Positions 9,558 to 18,103 of a stretch of 50,298 nucleotides of DNA are shown here, one piece after another. Position 1 is the first letter of the stretch, and each line of letters begins with the position of its first letter. The position numbers were made by a program, and so were the translations under genes. The stretch comes from Myxococcales bacterium (GTDB lineage Bacteria; Myxococcota_A; UBA9042). The notes beneath the pieces are model-generated. The model was not told the DNA's origin. It ran no database searches and saw only the letters and a list, made by a program, of their open reading frames with translations. The stretch covers positions 1 to 50,298 of the forward strand of contig SHZF01000029.1 in NCBI GenBank assembly GCA_009692425.1, given 5' to 3'.

Positions 9558-10193
9558 TCAGGCCCGAGGGCGCCGCCGCAAGCGCCCCACCAACCCCACC
9601 TCCACCTCCGCCGCCACCATCTCCCACGCCGGCCGCGGCAATCCCCGCTCATCGGCCACCTGCCACAAGGACGTCATGCGGACGCCATCCAGCCCGCACG
9701 GCGTGATGGCGGCAAAGCCTTCCAAATGCGGGCACACGTTGAGTGCGAGCCCGTGCAGCGTCCACCCATTGCGCACGCCCACGCCGATGCTCGCGAGCTT
9801 CGTGCGCTCGTCGAGCCAGACGCCTGCGAAGCCGGGCCGCACCACCGTCTCGATGCCACACGCCGCGCACGCCTGCTGGATCGCCGCTTCGAGCAACCGC
9901 GCATAGCCGGGCAGGTCGCCGAGCGGCCCGCGCCCGACCGGACCTTCGAGTTGGGCGAGCTGGACCACGGGATAGACCACGAGTTGGCCCGGCGCGTGGT
10001 AGGTGACCGAGCCGCCGCGGGCGATGTCCCACACTTCGACGGGCACCGGTTCGGCGTGACCGGGCAGGTCGAGCGTGCGCGCATGGACGGACGCCGCACC
10101 GCCCTTGCGTCCCAACGTGATCACGGGCGGGTGTTCGACGAACACGATCACATCGGGTGCCGACTTCGGCCTTTGCGCCAGCGTGTCGAGCAA
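9558..10193 (-). CDS. lipB: Lipoyl(octanoyl) transferase
   Basis: LipB moves octanoyl from acyl carrier protein to lipoyl domains. All family motifs are present: VFVEHPPVITLGRKG, RGGSVTYHAPGQLVVYP, the catalytic lysine in KLASIGVGV, the conserved HGLALNV, and the catalytic cysteine in ITPCGLDGV. The start is uncertain. The TTG at 10193 gives 211 residues but cuts off the family's N-terminal Y-A-x-A-L-A-L segment. In-frame codons reading PYADALA continue upstream to at least 10211, with no ATG, GTG or TTG before the preceding gene's stop. A CTG at 10301, overlapping that stop (CTGA), is a possible non-standard coupled start. lipA is not in the window. It is the last gene of the minus-strand run that begins with the helicase. 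Confidence 0.93.
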   Translation of the reverse strand: MLDTLAQRPKSAPDVIVFVEHPPVITLGRKGGAASVHARTLDLPGHAEPVPVEVWDIARGGSVTYHAPGQLVVYPVVQLAQLEGPVGRGPLGDLPGYARLLEAAIQQACAACGIETVVRPGFAGVWLDERTKLASIGVGVRNGWTLHGLALNVCPHLEGFAAITPCGLDGVRMTSLWQVADERGLPRPAWEMVAAEVEVGLVGRLRRRPRA

Positions 10194-10297
10194 GGCCAGC
10201 GCATCGGCGTACGGGCACAGCCAGCGCTCGCCATGCCGGAGGGTGCCCGGTCGCAGGGTGCCGGGCCGCGGCGGGAACGGGCGGGCGGCGACGAGGT

Positions 10298-11830
10298 TCA
10301 GATGCCGCCACCGCGGCGCAGCGCGTCGAGCGAGGTGTACGGCAACAGGCCCGTGGACGCGAACGCCCGCTTGAGCGGCACGGCGCCGTGGCCACCGGAG
10401 CGTGGGCCACCCACGGGCGCATCGTCGCGCAAGGCAGACGCGTGGTCGGTCAGTTCGAGCACCTGCGGCAAGATGCGGCGACGGGCCGACAGCACCTGGC
10501 GATGCTTGTACTCGGCATAGGACGCGCGCCCCTCAGTGGCCTGCTCGAAGCTCGCGAGGTCCATCACCTGGACTTCATAGGGGAAAAAGAACTGAATTTC
10601 GGGGTCCACGCCGTGCAGCGTCAACGACTCCAGCATCTCGTCGAGCGCGCGGCCGTCCAAGTGCTTGCGTGCTACCGCGTGCGCCGCCACCAGTCGCTCG
10701 TTCAGCGGATTCGGAATGCGGATCATTTGCCGGCAGGTGAATTGGATGGAGCGGTATTTGTCCGACGAATACGGGTTCCAGTCGACCTGCGCGTCGCCGA
10801 GTGGCTTGATGTCGAATGCCGCGATGGCCTGGACCGTCTCTGTCTCGTCCGCCTCACCGTGTTGGAACCGGACGAGGCAATCGCGCACGTGCCCGTCGTA
10901 GGCCTCAAGATCGACGAGCGTGTTGCGCGAACGCGTCGGCTTGATGTTCGGGTACATGATCGTGTGCTCTTCGCGCAGGGCCCGGATCGCGAAGAGAGCG
11001 TCCACGGGGCGCTCGACGATGATGCGCACGCCGATGTGGTCGAACAGGTCGTACGCGACGTTTTCCTGTTTTTGCAGGAGCTTGAGGACGACCGAGCGCA
11101 TCGGCTTGGTCTCCTTGACCTCGAATCGGACCAACGGAACCACGAAGCTCTCGCCGTGCAGCACCTGCGAGCCGTCGTCGAGCGTGCGGACCTGCGCCAC
11201 GAAGCGGTCGAGGATGCGCGCGCGAATCTCGCGGTAGAAGTTGTTCTGGAAGTAGTTGGCCGCGTGCGCGCTCGTGTGCATCACCCGCAGGATCGCGCAC
11301 GCCCACGCTCGGCGCAGGTCGTCGGCGGGCCCGATGGCCGTCACGCCCACAGGCTGCCACGGTCCCGATTCGTGCGCAGTGCCAGAGTCGGCGCCGAAAT
11401 CGCCTGCCGCCATGCGCACGAGGTCGAGGATCGGCAGGACGTCGAATTCGGCCGGCACGTCGAGGCCGGGAATGCCGGGCAGCAACACGCCGCGCAGGAA
11501 GCCGATGGCCTCGGCCCGGATGCGCTCCGCCTCATCTGCGTGGGCAGGGTTCTCGAGGTCGTAGCCGTAGCGCTGCAGGAAGCGGTTGGCCCCTTCGCTC
11601 CCGCGCTGGCCGAGGCGCAAGTGCGAGAGGTCGATGGCGGAGCGGCCACCGATGATGGTGTGCATCGTCTCCCACGAAAACACGAACCGCTGCAGCGGGG
11701 GCGGGAGCGGGCCCGGGCGCGGCGTCGTCAAGCGAGAGCACCTCCGCGTGGCAGTGTCGCAGTGTGCGGGGGCCGCGGCAAGTCGATCCTGCGGAGGGTC
11801 CATGGGCGTGGGTTGCCGCGCGCGCGCCAC
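10298..11830 (-). CDS. RelA/SpoT-like protein of unknown function (TIGR04552-like)
   Basis: Up to 510 residues from the ATG at 11830; the ATG at 11803 or a later start is possible because conserved-looking sequence begins only near FVFSWETMHTII (residue 49). I think it belongs to the uncharacterised TIGR04552 family of myxobacteria, from memory. Its centre follows the pattern of RelA/SpoT (p)ppGpp synthetase domains: KETKPMRSVVLKLLQK (239-254, compare RxKxxxSIxxK), DLFDHIGVRIIV (261-272, compare DLxGIRVVV), KYRSIQFT (358-365, compare GYxSLHT), and YEVQVMD ... SYAEYKHR (418-444, compare VEIQIRT ... YK). The Mg-binding Asp, the stacking Tyr and the Glu of VEIQ have equivalents here. No HD hydrolase, TGS or ACT domain is evident. 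Nucleotide synthesis is inference, not shown. Confidence 0.75.
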   Translation of the reverse strand: MARARQPTPMDPPQDRLAAAPAHCDTATRRCSRLTTPRPGPLPPPLQRFVFSWETMHTIIGGRSAIDLSHLRLGQRGSEGANRFLQRYGYDLENPAHADEAERIRAEAIGFLRGVLLPGIPGLDVPAEFDVLPILDLVRMAAGDFGADSGTAHESGPWQPVGVTAIGPADDLRRAWACAILRVMHTSAHAANYFQNNFYREIRARILDRFVAQVRTLDDGSQVLHGESFVVPLVRFEVKETKPMRSVVLKLLQKQENVAYDLFDHIGVRIIVERPVDALFAIRALREEHTIMYPNIKPTRSRNTLVDLEAYDGHVRDCLVRFQHGEADETETVQAIAAFDIKPLGDAQVDWNPYSSDKYRSIQFTCRQMIRIPNPLNERLVAAHAVARKHLDGRALDEMLESLTLHGVDPEIQFFFPYEVQVMDLASFEQATEGRASYAEYKHRQVLSARRRILPQVLELTDHASALRDDAPVGGPRSGGHGAVPLKRAFASTGLLPYTSLDALRRGGGI

Positions 11831-11848
11831 AGGGTCATCGCGGGTCCG

Positions 11849-12526
11849 CTACGCTTCTGCCGCCGTCGATGCCACGATCCCGGGGTCGGCCCCGAGGCTG
11901 CGGACGGCGTCACGCCAGATTTCGCCGGCGTCCGCACGAAACAGCAGCGCGAGGTCCGGCTCGGCGGGCAGCCAGGTGCCTTCGCGCACTTCGGACTCGA
12001 GTTGGCCCGCCGCCCACGACGCTCGCCCGAGATACAACGCGTAGCGCGACGGCCCCTTGCCGCGAGCGATGTCGCGCAGGATGTCCATCGACGACGACAC
12101 CCGCAGCCCGGGCACGACGTCGGCCTGCGGGTCGTATTCCGGCGTGGTAGGCCCCACTTCGTACAGCACGAGGCCGGCTTGGGGCTGAACCGGTCCACCC
12201 AACCACACACTGCGCCCGTCGGCGAGCGCATGATGGATGCCGGCGAACTCGAGCAGCGCGGCGAGCGTCACCGGCGCCTGGCGGTTGACGACCACGCCGT
12301 AGCTGCCTTCCGGGCCGCTCTCGATGAGGAACACGACGCTGTGGCTGAAATTCGGGTCGTGCAGGCCGGGCACCGCGATCAGGATGCCGGGTGCGAGGCG
12401 CCCCGAAGAGGCCGACGACGATGCGGGTGCGGACGGAGTCACAGGACCTCGCGAGGCGGGCGACGGTGCCTCCCGTCTGCCTCCTCCATCCTCGCGCGCG
12501 CCTGCCGCGCTGGCAACGCGAATCAA
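11849..12526 (-). CDS. YqgE/AlgH (DUF179) family protein
   Basis: 225 residues from a TTG at 12526, 12 bases after the exoribonuclease stop; a GTG at 12442 with GAGG upstream is a good alternative, since everything before residue 43 is low-complexity Gly/Arg/Ser/Ala sequence. The conserved domain begins LAPGILIAVPGLHDPNFSHSVV and continues with GVVVNRQAPVTLAALL, VWLGGPV and ALYLGRASWAAGQLESEV, all standard for YqgE/AlgH. The family's biochemical role is unsettled: AlgH was linked to alginate regulation in Pseudomonas, and YqgE is widespread. It lies inside a tightly packed minus-strand gene run with the exoribonuclease upstream and the RelA/SpoT-like gene 18 bases downstream. Confidence 0.9.
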   Translation of the reverse strand: MIRVASAAGAREDGGGRREAPSPASRGPVTPSAPASSSASSGRLAPGILIAVPGLHDPNFSHSVVFLIESGPEGSYGVVVNRQAPVTLAALLEFAGIHHALADGRSVWLGGPVQPQAGLVLYEVGPTTPEYDPQADVVPGLRVSSSMDILRDIARGKGPSRYALYLGRASWAAGQLESEVREGTWLPAEPDLALLFRADAGEIWRDAVRSLGADPGIVASTAAEA

Positions 12527-12538
12527 CCAAGGTGGCCA

Positions 12539-14557
12539 TCACACGGGGCGCACGACGAGGTGGCCCGTCGCAGGATTCAACTCGTGCACGCGCACGGTCA
12601 CCGCATCGCCCAAGCGCAACGTGTCGTCGTGCACGCTGACTTCGAGACCCAGCGCAGAGACGTAGGCGAGCCGGTGTCCGCGCGCCGGCAAGATGCGCAC
12701 GACATCGGCTTGCAGCCGCGTGCCCACGCCGCGTTCGGCCAGCCACACGAGCTTGAAGCGCCGGTCGCCGTTGCGTTGCGCAGAGCGCCGGGCCTGCTGC
12801 CCCGCCTCGGCCCGCACCACACGCACACCCACCTCAGCAGCGGAATGCGGCAGTGGCAGCCCGCGCAGCGACGCGATGATCTGCCGGTGCGCCAGCAGGT
12901 CGAGGTAGCGTCGCAGCGGCGACGACGCCTGCACATAGGCTTCGACACCGAGCACGCCGTGCGGGGCCGGCTCCAACGCATAGCGCGCCGGGGCCAGCGT
13001 GCGGAATAGGGCATAGGCGTCGGCAGGCGTGGTGTAGACACCGGGCGGCAGCGGCGGGTCGTGGGGGCGGCCTTGCACGCGAAACGGCACCGGTGCGCGG
13101 CGGGCGGCACAGAAGCGGGCGGCGGCGAGGCCGGCCAGCACCATCGCTTCCGTGACGAAGCGGCGGCCCGGGCTCGTCTGGCTGGCCGCACGGATGTCCA
13201 CGCGCTTGCCGCGCGGCGCCCGCACTTCGACGTCGGGCTTGTACAGCAGCCACGCACCGTTGCGGACACGGGCGCGCTCCGACGCGAGCCCGGCTGCACA
13301 CAACCGGTTGGCAACCGAGGCGTCGACCGGCCCATCCGACAGGTCGGGCGCCGTGCGCAGGAGGGCGGCGTCGACGGCGTCGTAGCTCCAGGCAGCCTGC
13401 ACGGCGATTTCGGCCTCCGCGACATCGGTCGCCACGACGTTGCCGTCGGCGTCGAGGTCGATCCGGAACACGAGCGCGGGCCGTGGTGCGCCGGGCACGA
13501 GCGACGCGTGGCCGCGCGCCAGCGGGTCCGGCAGCATCCCGACCACATGGCGGGGGTGATACAGCGTGGCGCCGCGCTCGAGTGCGGAGAGGTCAACCGG
13601 ACCATCGACGGGTGTCCAGCAAGCCGGGCTGGCGATTGCCACCCAGAGCCGCCAGCCATCGCCGGCGGGCTCGATCCACACGGCGTCGTCAACCTCGTGG
13701 GGGTTTGCGCTGTCCACGCTGACAAACGGCAGGTCGAGCCGCGGCAGCCCGCCCGGCGGCAGGTCCGGTCGGGCGGTCGCAGCCGCGGCGTGAACGGCCG
13801 GGGCCAACTCCGCCAACAGCCCGGAGCGCGCAAGGTCGACGTCGTCCCACGCGTCCCACGCGCCCAGTTCGACGAGAAGCGTAGCGGCGTCGCGCCAGGG
13901 CACGGTGCGTTGGCTGCGCGCGGCCCGCAACACGTGATCGACCGCGAGGTCGCCGGGTTCCGGAGACAGCACGCACGCTTCGAGCCGTGTCACTAGGGCG
14001 GCGCGCGCGGCGGGCGACGGCGTACGGCCGGCACGCAGGTCTTCGACGACGCCCAGCCAAGGTGCTGCCGTGCGGGCCGCTTGCAGCGAGACGGCCCGAT
14101 CTTGCTGGTAGCGCGCCCGGTCGGCCCCCCCGCGCCGCCACAGCGAGCCGCCTTCGAGCCAGAACGCGTCGTCGTGCTGGGCGACGGCAATGGCCACTTG
14201 GTCGCGCAGCGTGGGCGTATCGGCGCCCACGACGAGCGCGGCGAGCGCGCCAAGGCTCGCCAGTTCCGTCGGACCCTCGGGTGCTCCCAGCAGCGCCCAG
14301 GCCGTGTCGATGTCGGCAGCGGGCACCGCGGCCAGCGCGCCCATTCGCAGCGCGTCGACTTCGGCGAGATCCGCGGCCGGCGCCGTCAGCCGCAGGGCGA
14401 TGGCGGATCGCTCGACTTTGGTCACCTGAGGCTGGCCCGTATCGTCGCGCCATTGCACGCGGACCGGCAAGCGCGGGCGCTCGCCCACCACGCGGCCGAG
14501 CCGCAGTGCGCCCTGGATGGCGACCAGCACCAGCGGCGCGGCAACGGCGTCAACCAT
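12539..14557 (-). CDS. RNB-domain exoribonuclease (RNase II/R family)
   Basis: 672 residues, starting at the ATG at 14557, which overlaps the helicase stop by 8 bases (ATGGTTGA); an earlier start at 14674 would run deep into the helicase gene. The RNB catalytic centre is around residues 265-290: VSVDSANPHEVDDAVWI, where E. coli RNase II has an Asp quartet D-x5-D-I-D-D. Here the second Asp is Glu, a substitution also seen in plant and organellar RNase II-like enzymes. Downstream come YHPRHVVGMLPDPLA, VTEAMVLAG (helicase-like helix near the active site) and the conserved VQASSPLRRYLDLLAHRQI. A C-terminal S1-like strand set ends the protein. It would degrade RNA 3' to 5' processively. Confidence 0.9.
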   Translation of the reverse strand: MVDAVAAPLVLVAIQGALRLGRVVGERPRLPVRVQWRDDTGQPQVTKVERSAIALRLTAPAADLAEVDALRMGALAAVPAADIDTAWALLGAPEGPTELASLGALAALVVGADTPTLRDQVAIAVAQHDDAFWLEGGSLWRRGGADRARYQQDRAVSLQAARTAAPWLGVVEDLRAGRTPSPAARAALVTRLEACVLSPEPGDLAVDHVLRAARSQRTVPWRDAATLLVELGAWDAWDDVDLARSGLLAELAPAVHAAAATARPDLPPGGLPRLDLPFVSVDSANPHEVDDAVWIEPAGDGWRLWVAIASPACWTPVDGPVDLSALERGATLYHPRHVVGMLPDPLARGHASLVPGAPRPALVFRIDLDADGNVVATDVAEAEIAVQAAWSYDAVDAALLRTAPDLSDGPVDASVANRLCAAGLASERARVRNGAWLLYKPDVEVRAPRGKRVDIRAASQTSPGRRFVTEAMVLAGLAAARFCAARRAPVPFRVQGRPHDPPLPPGVYTTPADAYALFRTLAPARYALEPAPHGVLGVEAYVQASSPLRRYLDLLAHRQIIASLRGLPLPHSAAEVGVRVVRAEAGQQARRSAQRNGDRRFKLVWLAERGVGTRLQADVVRILPARGHRLAYVSALGLEVSVHDDTLRLGDAVTVRVHELNPATGHLVVRPV

Positions 14558-17003
14558 GGCGATCCGGTGTACGGCTCCCTGGGGTTCGGGTCGCCGAAGG
14601 TTGCGCAACCGGGGCCACGCCAATCGCGTTGCACAGGGCGTGTACCAGGCTCGTCCAGCGCCGCACGGGCGCATCGTTGCGCGCGGCCTTCTCGACGGCG
14701 TGTGCCTGACCGACGATGGCGACGAAGCGGCGAGCGCGCGTCATTGCGGTGTACAGCAGGTTGCGCTGCAGCAGCATGTGGTGCTGGCCGTGCAACACGA
14801 GGACCACGGCGGGGTACTCGCTGCCCTGGGCCTTGTGCACCGTGACCGCATACGCCAATTGCAGGTTTTCGACATGGGCGATCGGGTAGTAGACTTCGCG
14901 GTCGCCGAAGCGCACGTGCACGGTGGCTTCGCTGTCGAGCAACCCCTGGGCGTTGGCGGCGCCGTCGGGCGTGCCGCTGGCGAGCCCGACCACCACGCCG
15001 ATGTCGCCGTTGAACACGTCGAGGTCGTAGTCATTTCGAACCTGCAGCACCTTGTCGCCCGCGCGCAGTCCGGCCGCCACCGGGACGCCGTCCGGATTCA
15101 GCGCCGCGCGCAGCGCCTCGTTCAAGCTCTGCGTGCCCAGCGTGCCGCGGTGCATCGGCACGAGCACCTGCACGTCTTCGCGCGGGTCGAACCCAAAGCG
15201 GCGGGGCAGCCGCACCGTAACGATTTCGATGAGCGTCCGCACCACTTCGTCGGCGTCGTCGCGCGGCACGAGGTAGAAATCGCCCGCACCCGGCGCGGCG
15301 TTCAGGGGTGGCTGACCGCGGCGCACGCGGTGGGCGTTGTCGATGAGAATCGAGCCTTCGGCCTGGCGCCAGATGCGGTCTAGGCGCACGGCCGGCACCG
15401 CGCCCGACGTCAACAGGTCGTCGAGCACCGCGCCGGGACCCACCGACGGCAGTTGGTCCGCGTCGCCGACCAGCAGGAGCCGCGCGCCATCTTGCACGGC
15501 CAGGGCCAGCGCGGCGGCGAGCGGCGCTTCGAGCATCGACACCTCGTCGATGACGATCACATCGGCATCGAGCGGGCGTTCGGCGTTGCGGCGGAACAGT
15601 TGGGCTTCCGGGTCGAATTCCAGCAACCGGTGCACGGTCTTTGCCTCGCGCCCCGTTGCCTCGGCCAGCCGCCGCGCCGCCCGGCCGGTGGGCGCCGCCA
15701 GCACGACGCGGGCGTGGTCGGGCTCCAACGCCGCCAGCACGCCGCGCACGATGGTCGTCTTGCCGGTGCCCGGCCCTCCGGTGACGACGAGCAGCCCGCC
15801 TTGCAGCGTCGCAGCCACGGCATCGCGCTGGGTGCCCTCGAGGGCGAACCCGAGCGACTCCTCGGCCAGCGCCAGCCTCACCTCGACGCGCGCTTCGCTG
15901 GGCCGCGTGGTCGCCGCATCGAGCAACTGGGCCACGCGACGGGCCAGGGTCTCTTCGGCGGCGGCCAGGTCGGGCAGCGCCAGCCGGGTCGTCGCCGCGC
16001 CAGTCGGGTCGTCCGCCGGGTCGTCCACTTCGAGCCGTACCAGCCTTCCGCTCGCCAGCGCGGCTTCTATGGCGTCGCCGAGCGTGGCCGGATCGAGGTC
16101 CAGCACACTCGCGGCCCGTTCCCGCACCAATTCAGCCGGCGGCGCGGTGTGGCCGGATTGAGCAAGGTCCTTGGCGGCGTGCAGCAACCCCGCCAGCAGT
16201 CGTGCGGGCGCGTCCGCGGCCGTTCCTAGGCTGCGCGCCACCTGGTCGGCAGTCTTGAAGCCGAACCCGACCACCTCGTCGGCCAGCCGATGCGGGTTCT
16301 CGCGGACCTTGCGTACGGCATCGACGCCCCACTCCTTGAGCACCCGCTGCGCGAGAGCCGGGCCCAGGCCGAGGCCGAGCAGGAACAACAGCGCGTCTTC
16401 CAGCCCACCACGCTGCTGGATGGCATCGACGAGCCGGGCGCGCTTCTTGCGGGACAGCCCAGGCACCTGCGCGAGCACGTCGGGGTCCTCGCGCGCACGT
16501 TGCAGGGCGTCGGTCCCCAGCACTTCGACGACGCGCCCGGCCAGCACCGGCCCGATGCCCTCGATCTTCGCCGCGAGCAGGTACTGGATCACGCCGACGG
16601 CTGTCGCCGGCAGCACCGGCTGGCACGCATCGACGCGAAACTGGCGCCCCCACTTCGGGTCCACCTCGACCCAGCCGTAGACCTGGACGCATTCGCCGGG
16701 CTCGACACCCCACAGCGAACCCTTGATCGTCCACATCTGGCCGTCGGCCTCGTTGCGCAAGGTTGCGATGCCGAAGCCGCGCACGGCGTCGCGGTAGACG
16801 AACCTCTGCAGCACGCCGCGCAGGCCGAGGCGCCCCGCGGTTGGCGCCTGCGATCCTTCGACGGCCGGCGTGAGCGGTGCGGTGGTGGCCTCGGCATCGC
16901 GCTGTTCGGCCCGCGCGAACACCTGCATCAGATCAGGCGACGACCGCGCAACTCTGCCCGCAGGTCCAACGCCGGAACGCCCGGTTTGTGGTGCGCGGGT
17001 CAT
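14550..17003 (-). CDS. recD2: RecD2-like ATP-dependent DNA helicase
   Basis: 817 residues from the ATG at 17003; an in-frame ATG at 16928 is an alternative, and the sequence before residue 60 is poorly conserved. Domain order fits RecD2: N-terminal OB-like strands (GVLQRFVYRDAVRGFGIATL), helix-hairpin-helix repeats (IEGIGPVLAGRVVEVLG and VPGLSRKKRARLVDAIQ), then SF1B helicase: LVVTGGPGTGKTTIV (Walker A), AAPTGRAARRLAE, VIVIDEVSML (Walker B), LVGDADQLPSVGPG (motif III), and C-terminal YAVTVHKAQGSEYPAVVLV (motif V) and LLYTAMTRAR (motif VI). RecD2 proteins are 5'-3' helicases found in bacteria lacking RecBC and are linked to DNA damage tolerance. It heads a compact minus-strand run with the exoribonuclease overlapping it. 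Confidence 0.94.
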   Translation of the reverse strand: MTRAPQTGRSGVGPAGRVARSSPDLMQVFARAEQRDAEATTAPLTPAVEGSQAPTAGRLGLRGVLQRFVYRDAVRGFGIATLRNEADGQMWTIKGSLWGVEPGECVQVYGWVEVDPKWGRQFRVDACQPVLPATAVGVIQYLLAAKIEGIGPVLAGRVVEVLGTDALQRAREDPDVLAQVPGLSRKKRARLVDAIQQRGGLEDALLFLLGLGLGPALAQRVLKEWGVDAVRKVRENPHRLADEVVGFGFKTADQVARSLGTAADAPARLLAGLLHAAKDLAQSGHTAPPAELVRERAASVLDLDPATLGDAIEAALASGRLVRLEVDDPADDPTGAATTRLALPDLAAAEETLARRVAQLLDAATTRPSEARVEVRLALAEESLGFALEGTQRDAVAATLQGGLLVVTGGPGTGKTTIVRGVLAALEPDHARVVLAAPTGRAARRLAEATGREAKTVHRLLEFDPEAQLFRRNAERPLDADVIVIDEVSMLEAPLAAALALAVQDGARLLLVGDADQLPSVGPGAVLDDLLTSGAVPAVRLDRIWRQAEGSILIDNAHRVRRGQPPLNAAPGAGDFYLVPRDDADEVVRTLIEIVTVRLPRRFGFDPREDVQVLVPMHRGTLGTQSLNEALRAALNPDGVPVAAGLRAGDKVLQVRNDYDLDVFNGDIGVVVGLASGTPDGAANAQGLLDSEATVHVRFGDREVYYPIAHVENLQLAYAVTVHKAQGSEYPAVVLVLHGQHHMLLQRNLLYTAMTRARRFVAIVGQAHAVEKAARNDAPVRRWTSLVHALCNAIGVAPVAQPSATRTPGSRTPDRHG

Positions 17004-17044
17004 GCACGCCGCAGCATGGTGCCGCCCTGCGCGTACACGGGCCC

Positions 17045-18103
17045 CTACTCGGCAGGCGGCGTCGCGGTTGGCAACGCGGGCCACTGCAAGGTGACATCGA
17101 CCTTCTGTCCCTTGCGCATCACCGACACGGTGCAGCCGGCGGGTGGGCTCGCCTGGAGCCCGCGGTCGAGTTGGTACGCGGCCGACAGGGGCCTTTCGCC
17201 CAACGAGACGATGATGTCGCCCAGTTCGAGCCCCGGCTGCACCTGCTGGACCAAGAGGCCGGAGTTACGTGCCGCAGCGAAAATCGTCCGCATGTCCAGG
17301 TTCGGCGCAAGACGGTCGAACATGCTCAGCACCGCGGCCTCGCGCACGATGTCCTGGTCCTTCTGGTGCTGCTCGTTCCAACTGGGGCTGTCGGGCAGCG
17401 TCCAGGCCATCACCGCCGGCACGCTGTCGACGATGCCGACTCCGCGGGTCCGGCGGCTGCCGGTGCCGTACAGCGAACTGCCGGAGCCCGCCAGCAGCAA
17501 GACCATGGCCTCGCCGATGATGCGCGTGATGCCCGGTCGCGGGTCGCCGCCCGGTTCGAAACTGGCCGGATCATCGTCAGCCTCGTAGACGAGCCCCGCC
17601 AGCTTGGCGCCGCGCCGGGCGTCGAGCACCGACACATCGACGCGCACCTTGGCCTCGATGCTGCGCTGCCGCCACGTGTTCGGCTTCTTCGGGTCCTTGA
17701 CGCGCGTGTCGACGATGTCGCGCTCGCTGCTGGCGCGGTTCTCGGTCACCAGCACGTGGATGACGAGCCAGTTGCGTACGTCGGCGTGCAGGGCGTCAGT
17801 GCGCGCGAGCAGGTCCGTATCGGTCATCGCGTTCTGCGCCTCGTCGGCGGGCTTGTTCAAGGTGTAGTCATACGGGCCGATCAGCGGCAGGTCCGTGCGC
17901 TGCATGAGCCAGCGCGCCAGATCGTTCGTGCGGGAAACGATATCGAGCGCGCTCGTCCCCGGAATCGCCAGCGCCACGGGCATGAGGATCAGGCCGGGCG
18001 GCCGCAGGCCAGGGTCGAGGCGCGTTTCTTCTTGGGCTTTCGGCCCCGCACTGCCGCAGGCGGTGCCGAACGCGAGCACGGCGAGCAGGGCAAGTCGGGC
18101 CAT
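17045..18103 (-). CDS. Lipoprotein with C-terminal PDZ-like domain
   Basis: 352 residues from the ATG at 18103. The start is chosen because it opens a clean lipoprotein signal (MARLALLAVLAFGTAC, lipid-accepting Cys16). An N-terminal half (about 30-250) shows LILMPVALAIPGTSALDIV, a DIVDTRVKDPKKPNTWRQRS loop and VRVDVSVLDARRGAKLAG strands, but I do not recognise a family. The last 80 residues (LLVQQVQPGLELGDIIVSLG ... GCTVSVMRKGQKVDVTLQW) look like a PDZ domain, as in HtrA or type II secretion GspC proteins, without any protease motif. Probably an outer- or inner-membrane-anchored periplasmic protein. Its gene is divergent from a small lipoprotein gene and 41 bases upstream of recD2 on the same strand. 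Confidence 0.78.
   Translation of the reverse strand: MARLALLAVLAFGTACGSAGPKAQEETRLDPGLRPPGLILMPVALAIPGTSALDIVSRTNDLARWLMQRTDLPLIGPYDYTLNKPADEAQNAMTDTDLLARTDALHADVRNWLVIHVLVTENRASSERDIVDTRVKDPKKPNTWRQRSIEAKVRVDVSVLDARRGAKLAGLVYEADDDPASFEPGGDPRPGITRIIGEAMVLLLAGSGSSLYGTGSRRTRGVGIVDSVPAVMAWTLPDSPSWNEQHQKDQDIVREAAVLSMFDRLAPNLDMRTIFAAARNSGLLVQQVQPGLELGDIIVSLGERPLSAAYQLDRGLQASPPAGCTVSVMRKGQKVDVTLQWPALPTATPPAE

Follow-up and report, generated by a model that had tools for sequence, protein, structure and literature searches.

On the minus strand of contig SHZF01000029.1 from a Myxococcales bacterium, within the 50,298-nucleotide stretch analysed here (the window), lies a gene in which an initial annotation had noticed a RelA/SpoT-like catalytic pattern. 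The question raised by this locus is whether its product belongs with the RelA/SpoT synthetases and, if so, whether it is an active enzyme and on what acceptor it works. The open reading frame has 510 codons, from a GTG at 11830 to a stop at 10298. The conserved part of the encoded protein, called the window protein below, begins near residue 40, and this GTG may be upstream of the real start. Relatives of about 65-70% identity are present in other myxobacterial MAGs, and pairs of close relatives give dN/dS values of about 0.05-0.11, the mark of purifying selection. The frame is a real gene; the long plus-strand frame that overlaps it (10157-13009) is most probably a shadow frame of GC-rich DNA.

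The window protein is a full member of two NCBIfam families, TIGR04562 (308.4 bits against a cut-off of 140, E 7e-92) and TIGR04552 (296 bits against a cut-off of 125). At 510 residues it differs from the profiles, which are about 355 positions long, by additional N- and C-terminal stretches. The NCBIfam descriptions of both carry neither a function nor a RelA/SpoT label. No account of the family was found in the literature, the sole mention being of an indel in Bdellovibrio sp. NC01, where a member is named (PMC9888234). A RelA/SpoT-type assignment for these previously function-less families is what is newly added here. The features of the locus are collected in Table 1.

Table 1. Features of the locus, in window coordinates
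Feature	Position	Strand	Basis or remark
lipB (octanoyltransferase)	9558..10193	-	directly downstream of the target gene
TIGR04562/TIGR04552-family gene, 510 aa	10298..11830	-	TIGR04562 308 bits, cut-off 140
RelA/SpoT-like SYNTH domain, residues 236-452	10475..11125	-	Pfam, PDB-profile, hhalign and fold searches
syn4/5-like block E419-x-Q421-x2-D424 ... G434..Y441-K..Q445..R452, putative metal Glu	10475..10579	-	D424 replaces the IRT segment
G-loop-like block N352-x6-Y359-R-S-I-Q363	10736..10777	-	family alignment
Region 273-351, about 50 residues longer than in RelSeq through an insertion, with invariant N303	10778..11014	-	spacing and alignment
syn2-like block DLFD264HIGVR269, putative metal Asp and adenine-stacking Arg	11015..11050	-	D264 and R269 in 68/68
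syn1-like block K239..K242-x3-S246-x3-K250-x3-K254, putative ATP phosphate clamp	11069..11116	-	roles from PMC5794853
N-terminal half, mostly helical, residues 56-235	11126..11665	-	predicted model and fold searches
C178-x6-H185-x3-H189, residues 178-189, in one long helix	11264..11299	-	predicted helix 168-213
YqgE/AlgH (DUF179) protein	11849..12526	-	18 nt upstream of the target gene
RNB-domain exoribonuclease-like protein	12539..14674	-	profile matches
RecD2-family helicase	14550..17084	-	profile match

Among 24,736 Pfam families the best match of the window protein was RelA_SpoT (21.4 bits, E 3.2e-4, residues 241-292), which lies below the PF04607 gathering score of 27 and so does not confer Pfam membership. 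RelA_SpoT was also the common Pfam match of 31 of the 33 members in a 33-member alignment. Three relatives of the second subfamily described below, type 2, scored above the cut-off (L016, L010 and L027, at 29.2, 28.2 and 28.4) over profile positions 4-112 of 113, and two of them passed it in an independent genome scan as well. When the family profile was run against solved structures, RelSeq (1vj7) ranked first (5.5e-4) with both motif blocks aligned, and was followed by SAS and Rel chains, RelP included. Alignment of the family with Myxococcota Rel by hhalign gave E 4.1e-5 and put the K, D, R, Y, E and Q positions and the YK segments in register. The fold was examined on an AlphaFold2 model of the window protein built from 14 sequences (mean pLDDT 69.5). 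The best 21 Foldseek rows for this model against the PDB were all RSH or SAS, at E values of only 9e-3 or worse, and VIA-align placed 19 RSH/SAS entries first (Z 6.0-7.2), the first unrelated entry scoring 4.8; on the predicted model, then, the protein has the SYNTH fold. Single-sequence searches of the PDB returned no match with the window protein as query and chance matches only with a type-2 member.

Taken singly these lines of evidence are moderate, and combined they leave little doubt. Because the Pfam, PDB-profile, hhalign and fold searches converge on one superfamily, we accept the homology, and the family is almost certainly a divergent branch of the RelA/SpoT SYNTH superfamily. The resemblance pointed out in the initial annotation is borne out by these searches and by the retained positions as going beyond chance, and the fold comparison that it had proposed returned the RelA/SAS synthetase domain as the best match with both Foldseek and VIA-align.

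Residue conservation was counted over 68 family sequences, 67 of them distinct. In RelP, R78 and R112 are assigned to adenine, K80, K88, R91 and S84 to the phosphates, D107 and E174 to magnesium, and Y151 to the G-loop (PMC5794853); the RelSeq counterparts are R241/R269, D264, Y308 and E323 (PMC7983052). K242, K250, D264, R269, E419 and Q421 of the window protein are invariant in all 68 sequences and S246 is present in 67. The family thereby retains the equivalents of the RelP phosphate contacts Lys80, Ser84 and Lys88 (K242, S246 and K250), of the metal-binding Asp and Glu (D264 and E419, for D107/E174 of RelP and D264/E323 of RelSeq) and of one member of the adenine-stacking Arg pair (R269, for R112). 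The G-loop position Y359 is Tyr in 61 sequences and Phe in 7. This retention is seen across two types whose mean identity to each other is 24%. Fourteen of 316 columns are invariant, and 6 of the 11 canonical ATP, Mg and G-loop positions fall among them (p ~1e-6), a value that measures retention and not homology, the canonical positions having been mapped by homology. The motifs quoted earlier at residues 239-254, 261-272, 358-365 and 418-444 are all where they were said to be, and the Asp, Tyr and Glu proposed for a conservation check are conserved as counted above. Of the two aspartates then singled out, D264 is the metal Asp and D261 is not conserved. The first block had been described as RxKxxxSIxxK-like; it actually reads K-x2-K-x3-S-x3-K-x3-K, without the Arg of RxK.

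This missing Arg corresponds to R78 of RelP and R241 of RelSeq, and type 2 carries an Arg one residue further on. Because an adenine-stacking residue is not at its usual place, ATP binding may be altered. The claim that the motifs keep the order and roughly the spacing of (p)ppGpp synthetases holds for the S-to-D interval, which is canonical (18 residues vs 17), and fails for the two that follow. From D to Y there are 95 residues in the window protein and 72-100 in the family members measured, compared with 44 in RelSeq/RelP; from Y to E there are 60, and 26-60 in the members measured, compared with 15/23. These longer spacings amount to two insertions. The first inserted region carries N303, which is invariant, and Asn352 lies seven residues before the G-loop Tyr; neither has a role assigned to it.

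Guanosine enzymes carry SxH as their syn3 signature, and (p)ppApp enzymes carry GxN (PMC12226406). In the family, type 1 has SxQ (SIQ) at this place and type 2 has (V/M/I)x(N/H); SxH occurs in 1 of 67 sequences. The Gln in place of His after S-I, noted earlier as a single change, is thus a hallmark of type 1; type 2 mostly has His or Asn there, Asn in about half. At syn4 the 'IR' of the guanosine type appears in none of the listed patterns and gives way to two hydrophobic residues followed by an invariant Asp, D424 (VMD in the window protein). The Arg of the syn4 'IRT' is invariant in Myxococcota Rel and lost in all family members. The Apk-type set of signatures (syn2 RYT, syn3 GxN, syn4 YH) was not found, the family's own syn2 being GVR/RFR. 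By their syn3 and syn4 sequences, therefore, the family members match neither the guanosine-type nor the adenosine-type signatures. The donor half of the site thus appears preserved and the acceptor half rebuilt. What this says about the acceptor is weak, because swaps of the syn signatures do not swap nucleotide specificity (PMC12226406).

The N-terminal half is predicted to be mostly helical, with pLDDT of about 85-93 at residues 90-140 in the full model and a mean of 74.7 when modelled alone. Searches of solved structures by Foldseek and VIA-align with residues 56-240 alone found no recognisable relative; RbcX (best Z 5.0) and HIV capsid (about 3) came up and were dismissed as chance helical matches. 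To that extent the earlier description of a fusion to a novel N-terminal half holds. An HD hydrolase domain had no Pfam match in the window protein, and no RSH relative came up when the N-terminal model was searched by itself. Within this half, C178 is present in 67 of 67 sequences, H185 in 66 and H189 in 65; they lie on one face of the predicted helix and could form a metal or cofactor site.

Scores above cut-off were found in 166 of 282 Myxococcota genomes for TIGR04562 and in 167 of 282 for TIGR04552, largely at the same loci. About 60% of the sampled Myxococcota genomes are thus carriers, nearly always with a single copy, and none of 14 control genomes has the family. The tree divides into two fully supported clades, type 1 (TIGR04562-like, with the window protein) and type 2 (TIGR04552-like); three genomes (G142, G161 and G216) hold one copy of each. 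A scan of a viral-contig set with the family profile returned no relative and plasmid searches found none. The one match among phage records, a type-1 member on MW495066.1 (273,876 bp, titled 'Microcystis phage MaAM05, complete genome'), was rejected as phage-borne, the record carrying rpsA, rplU, secE, nusG, trpS, glyS, secDF and tRNA-Trp and being therefore a bacterial chromosome fragment. This member (L117:5872-7089, L118) has a canonical YRSLH G-loop. Additionally, a record titled Klebsiella pneumoniae (L043, CAMDBH010000001.1) contains a recD2-RNB-target-lipB run at about 65% identity that falls inside the myxobacterial clade, and is probably a mislabelled MAG. Because it occurs as a single chromosomal copy, the gene would seem to have a resident physiological role and not that of a mobile toxin. 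The window's genome also encodes one canonical long RSH, in a 777-aa frame. Further weak RelA_SpoT matches (22-23 bits) in two genomes of the same family-level lineage lie on contigs other than that of the TIGR04562 gene (G020:C144:295087-295458 and G004:C14:192838-193209), and are possibly another undescribed SYNTH-like protein.

The initial annotation had also placed the gene in an operon-like run with an exoribonuclease and lipB. Within the window's family-level lineage lipB does lie immediately 3' of the gene at every one of the 16 loci, and in most of them the two overlap by 4 nt, but it was not seen there in the loci examined outside this lineage, where the gene is flanked by lon, by DUF507-yicC-gmk (identified by eye from their sequences) or by others. 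Linkage to lipB, the exoribonuclease or gmk was consequently dropped as a clue to function, each link being confined to one lineage. The 711-aa RNB protein matched exoribonuclease models well below their cut-offs (best 154 bits vs 368.6), and reads as a divergent RNase II/R-like protein conserved beside the target in the window's lineage.

Set beside known systems, the window protein shares with the RelP/RelQ type of SAS the predicted SYNTH fold (best Z 7.2, with RelQ), the K/S/K clamp, the metal Asp and Glu, the adenine Arg R269, the G-loop Tyr and the lack of a detected HD hydrolase domain. It is unlike them in having no R78 equivalent at the usual place, in the changes of SxH to SxQ and of IRT to VMD, in its two insertions and in carrying a distinct helical half, some 180 residues long, at its N-terminus. 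Among the long RSH enzymes (Rel/RelA/SpoT), RelSeq 1vj7 is its closest PDB sequence match, with the D264..R269, E-x-Q ... G-x-A-x-H/Y ... YK segments aligned, yet no HD, TGS or ACT domain was detected and the acceptor-side signatures are changed. The (p)ppApp synthetases of the Apk/Tas1 type belong to the same superfamily, and the type-2 Asn at the third syn3 position is GxN-like; unlike them, the family has xxR and not RYT at syn2, no Gly at the first syn3 position, no YH at syn4, and is not toxin-linked. Of the RSH subgroups described in PMC3153485, which include bdRel and divRel, bdRel is listed as beta/delta-proteobacterial only.

On balance we read the window protein as a divergent RelA/SpoT-superfamily synthetase, an ATP-dependent 3'-pyrophosphokinase whose acceptor is probably other than plain GDP/GTP. 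That the family is an active pyrophosphokinase appears likely, because the ATP and Mg residues are near-invariant even though types 1 and 2 have diverged so far; this agrees with the first of the two options offered earlier, a divergent enzyme or an inactive relative. The second option, a SYNTH relative without catalysis, still able to bind ATP or an alarmone and serving as sensor or scaffold, would suit the displaced R78/R241 equivalent and the divergent acceptor-side residues, but both metal ligands and the clamp lysines are invariant across 67 sequences and 24% cross-type identity, which would be unexpected after catalytic loss, and we hold it to be improbable. An acceptor other than GDP/GTP is suggested because the pocket on that side is unlike the one in guanosine-specific enzymes, and taken by itself this part is close to an even call.

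An ordinary, drifted (p)ppGpp synthetase, making ppGpp/pppGpp from ATP and GDP/GTP as RelP/RelQ do and with a regulatory N-terminal half, is the rival that deserves most attention, although we consider it unlikely. It is consistent with the keeping of Y359, D264, E419 and R269, with the YRSLH relative on MW495066.1 and the many type-2 members that keep His after the loop, and with the long RSH of the same genome, a family usually supplying hydrolysis. SxH is nevertheless missing in nearly all members, the IRT Arg is lost in all, and two insertions enlarge the acceptor side. Much less probable is a toxin of the toxSAS type (FaRel2, CapRel, PhRel2), pyrophosphorylating the 3'-CCA end of tRNA within a toxin-antitoxin or defence module. 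These enzymes share the fold family and do apply it to tRNA (PMC11559606), but neighbours in 33 loci included no recurring small or antitoxin-like partner gene, being instead lipB, algH, RNB, recD2, lon or gmk; PADLOC gave no match save a weak one (0.018) for one outlier; no member was found on plasmids or in viral contigs; and the predicted model scores lower with FaRel2 (Z 3.3) than with RelQ. Least probable of all is a convergent motif look-alike unrelated to RelA/SpoT, for which the empty single-sequence PDB search could be cited and which the Pfam, PDB-profile, hhalign and fold searches already contradict.

In the pyrophosphokinase that we favour, K242, S246 and K250 would clamp the phosphates of ATP, D264 and E419 would hold Mg2+, and R269 would stack on the adenine. 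The beta,gamma-pyrophosphate would then be transferred to a 3'-hydroxyl on an acceptor that stacks against Y359, in a pocket altered at syn3 and syn4, by the enlarged loop before the Tyr and by D424 in place of IRT. Candidates for this acceptor are another nucleotide or the end of an RNA, and the helical N-terminal half with C178/H185/H189 may regulate the enzyme or present its substrate. We would put forward only tentatively, as possible but rather doubtful, the more specific version of a Myxococcota-resident pyrophosphokinase whose product, a modified nucleotide or RNA, is neither (p)ppGpp nor (p)ppApp, and whose activity is governed by a new helical domain, possibly a metal binder via Cys178/His185/His189.

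Fruiting-body development in myxobacteria starts in response to the starvation signal (p)ppGpp. If our reading is true, most sampled Myxococcota genomes, about 60%, hold a second, overlooked SYNTH-type enzyme, old enough to have separated into two subfamilies that share 24% identity, and nucleotide signalling or RNA control in this phylum would gain a branch so far uncharted. The 'TIGR04552 family protein' would become a testable enzyme with its catalytic residues named.
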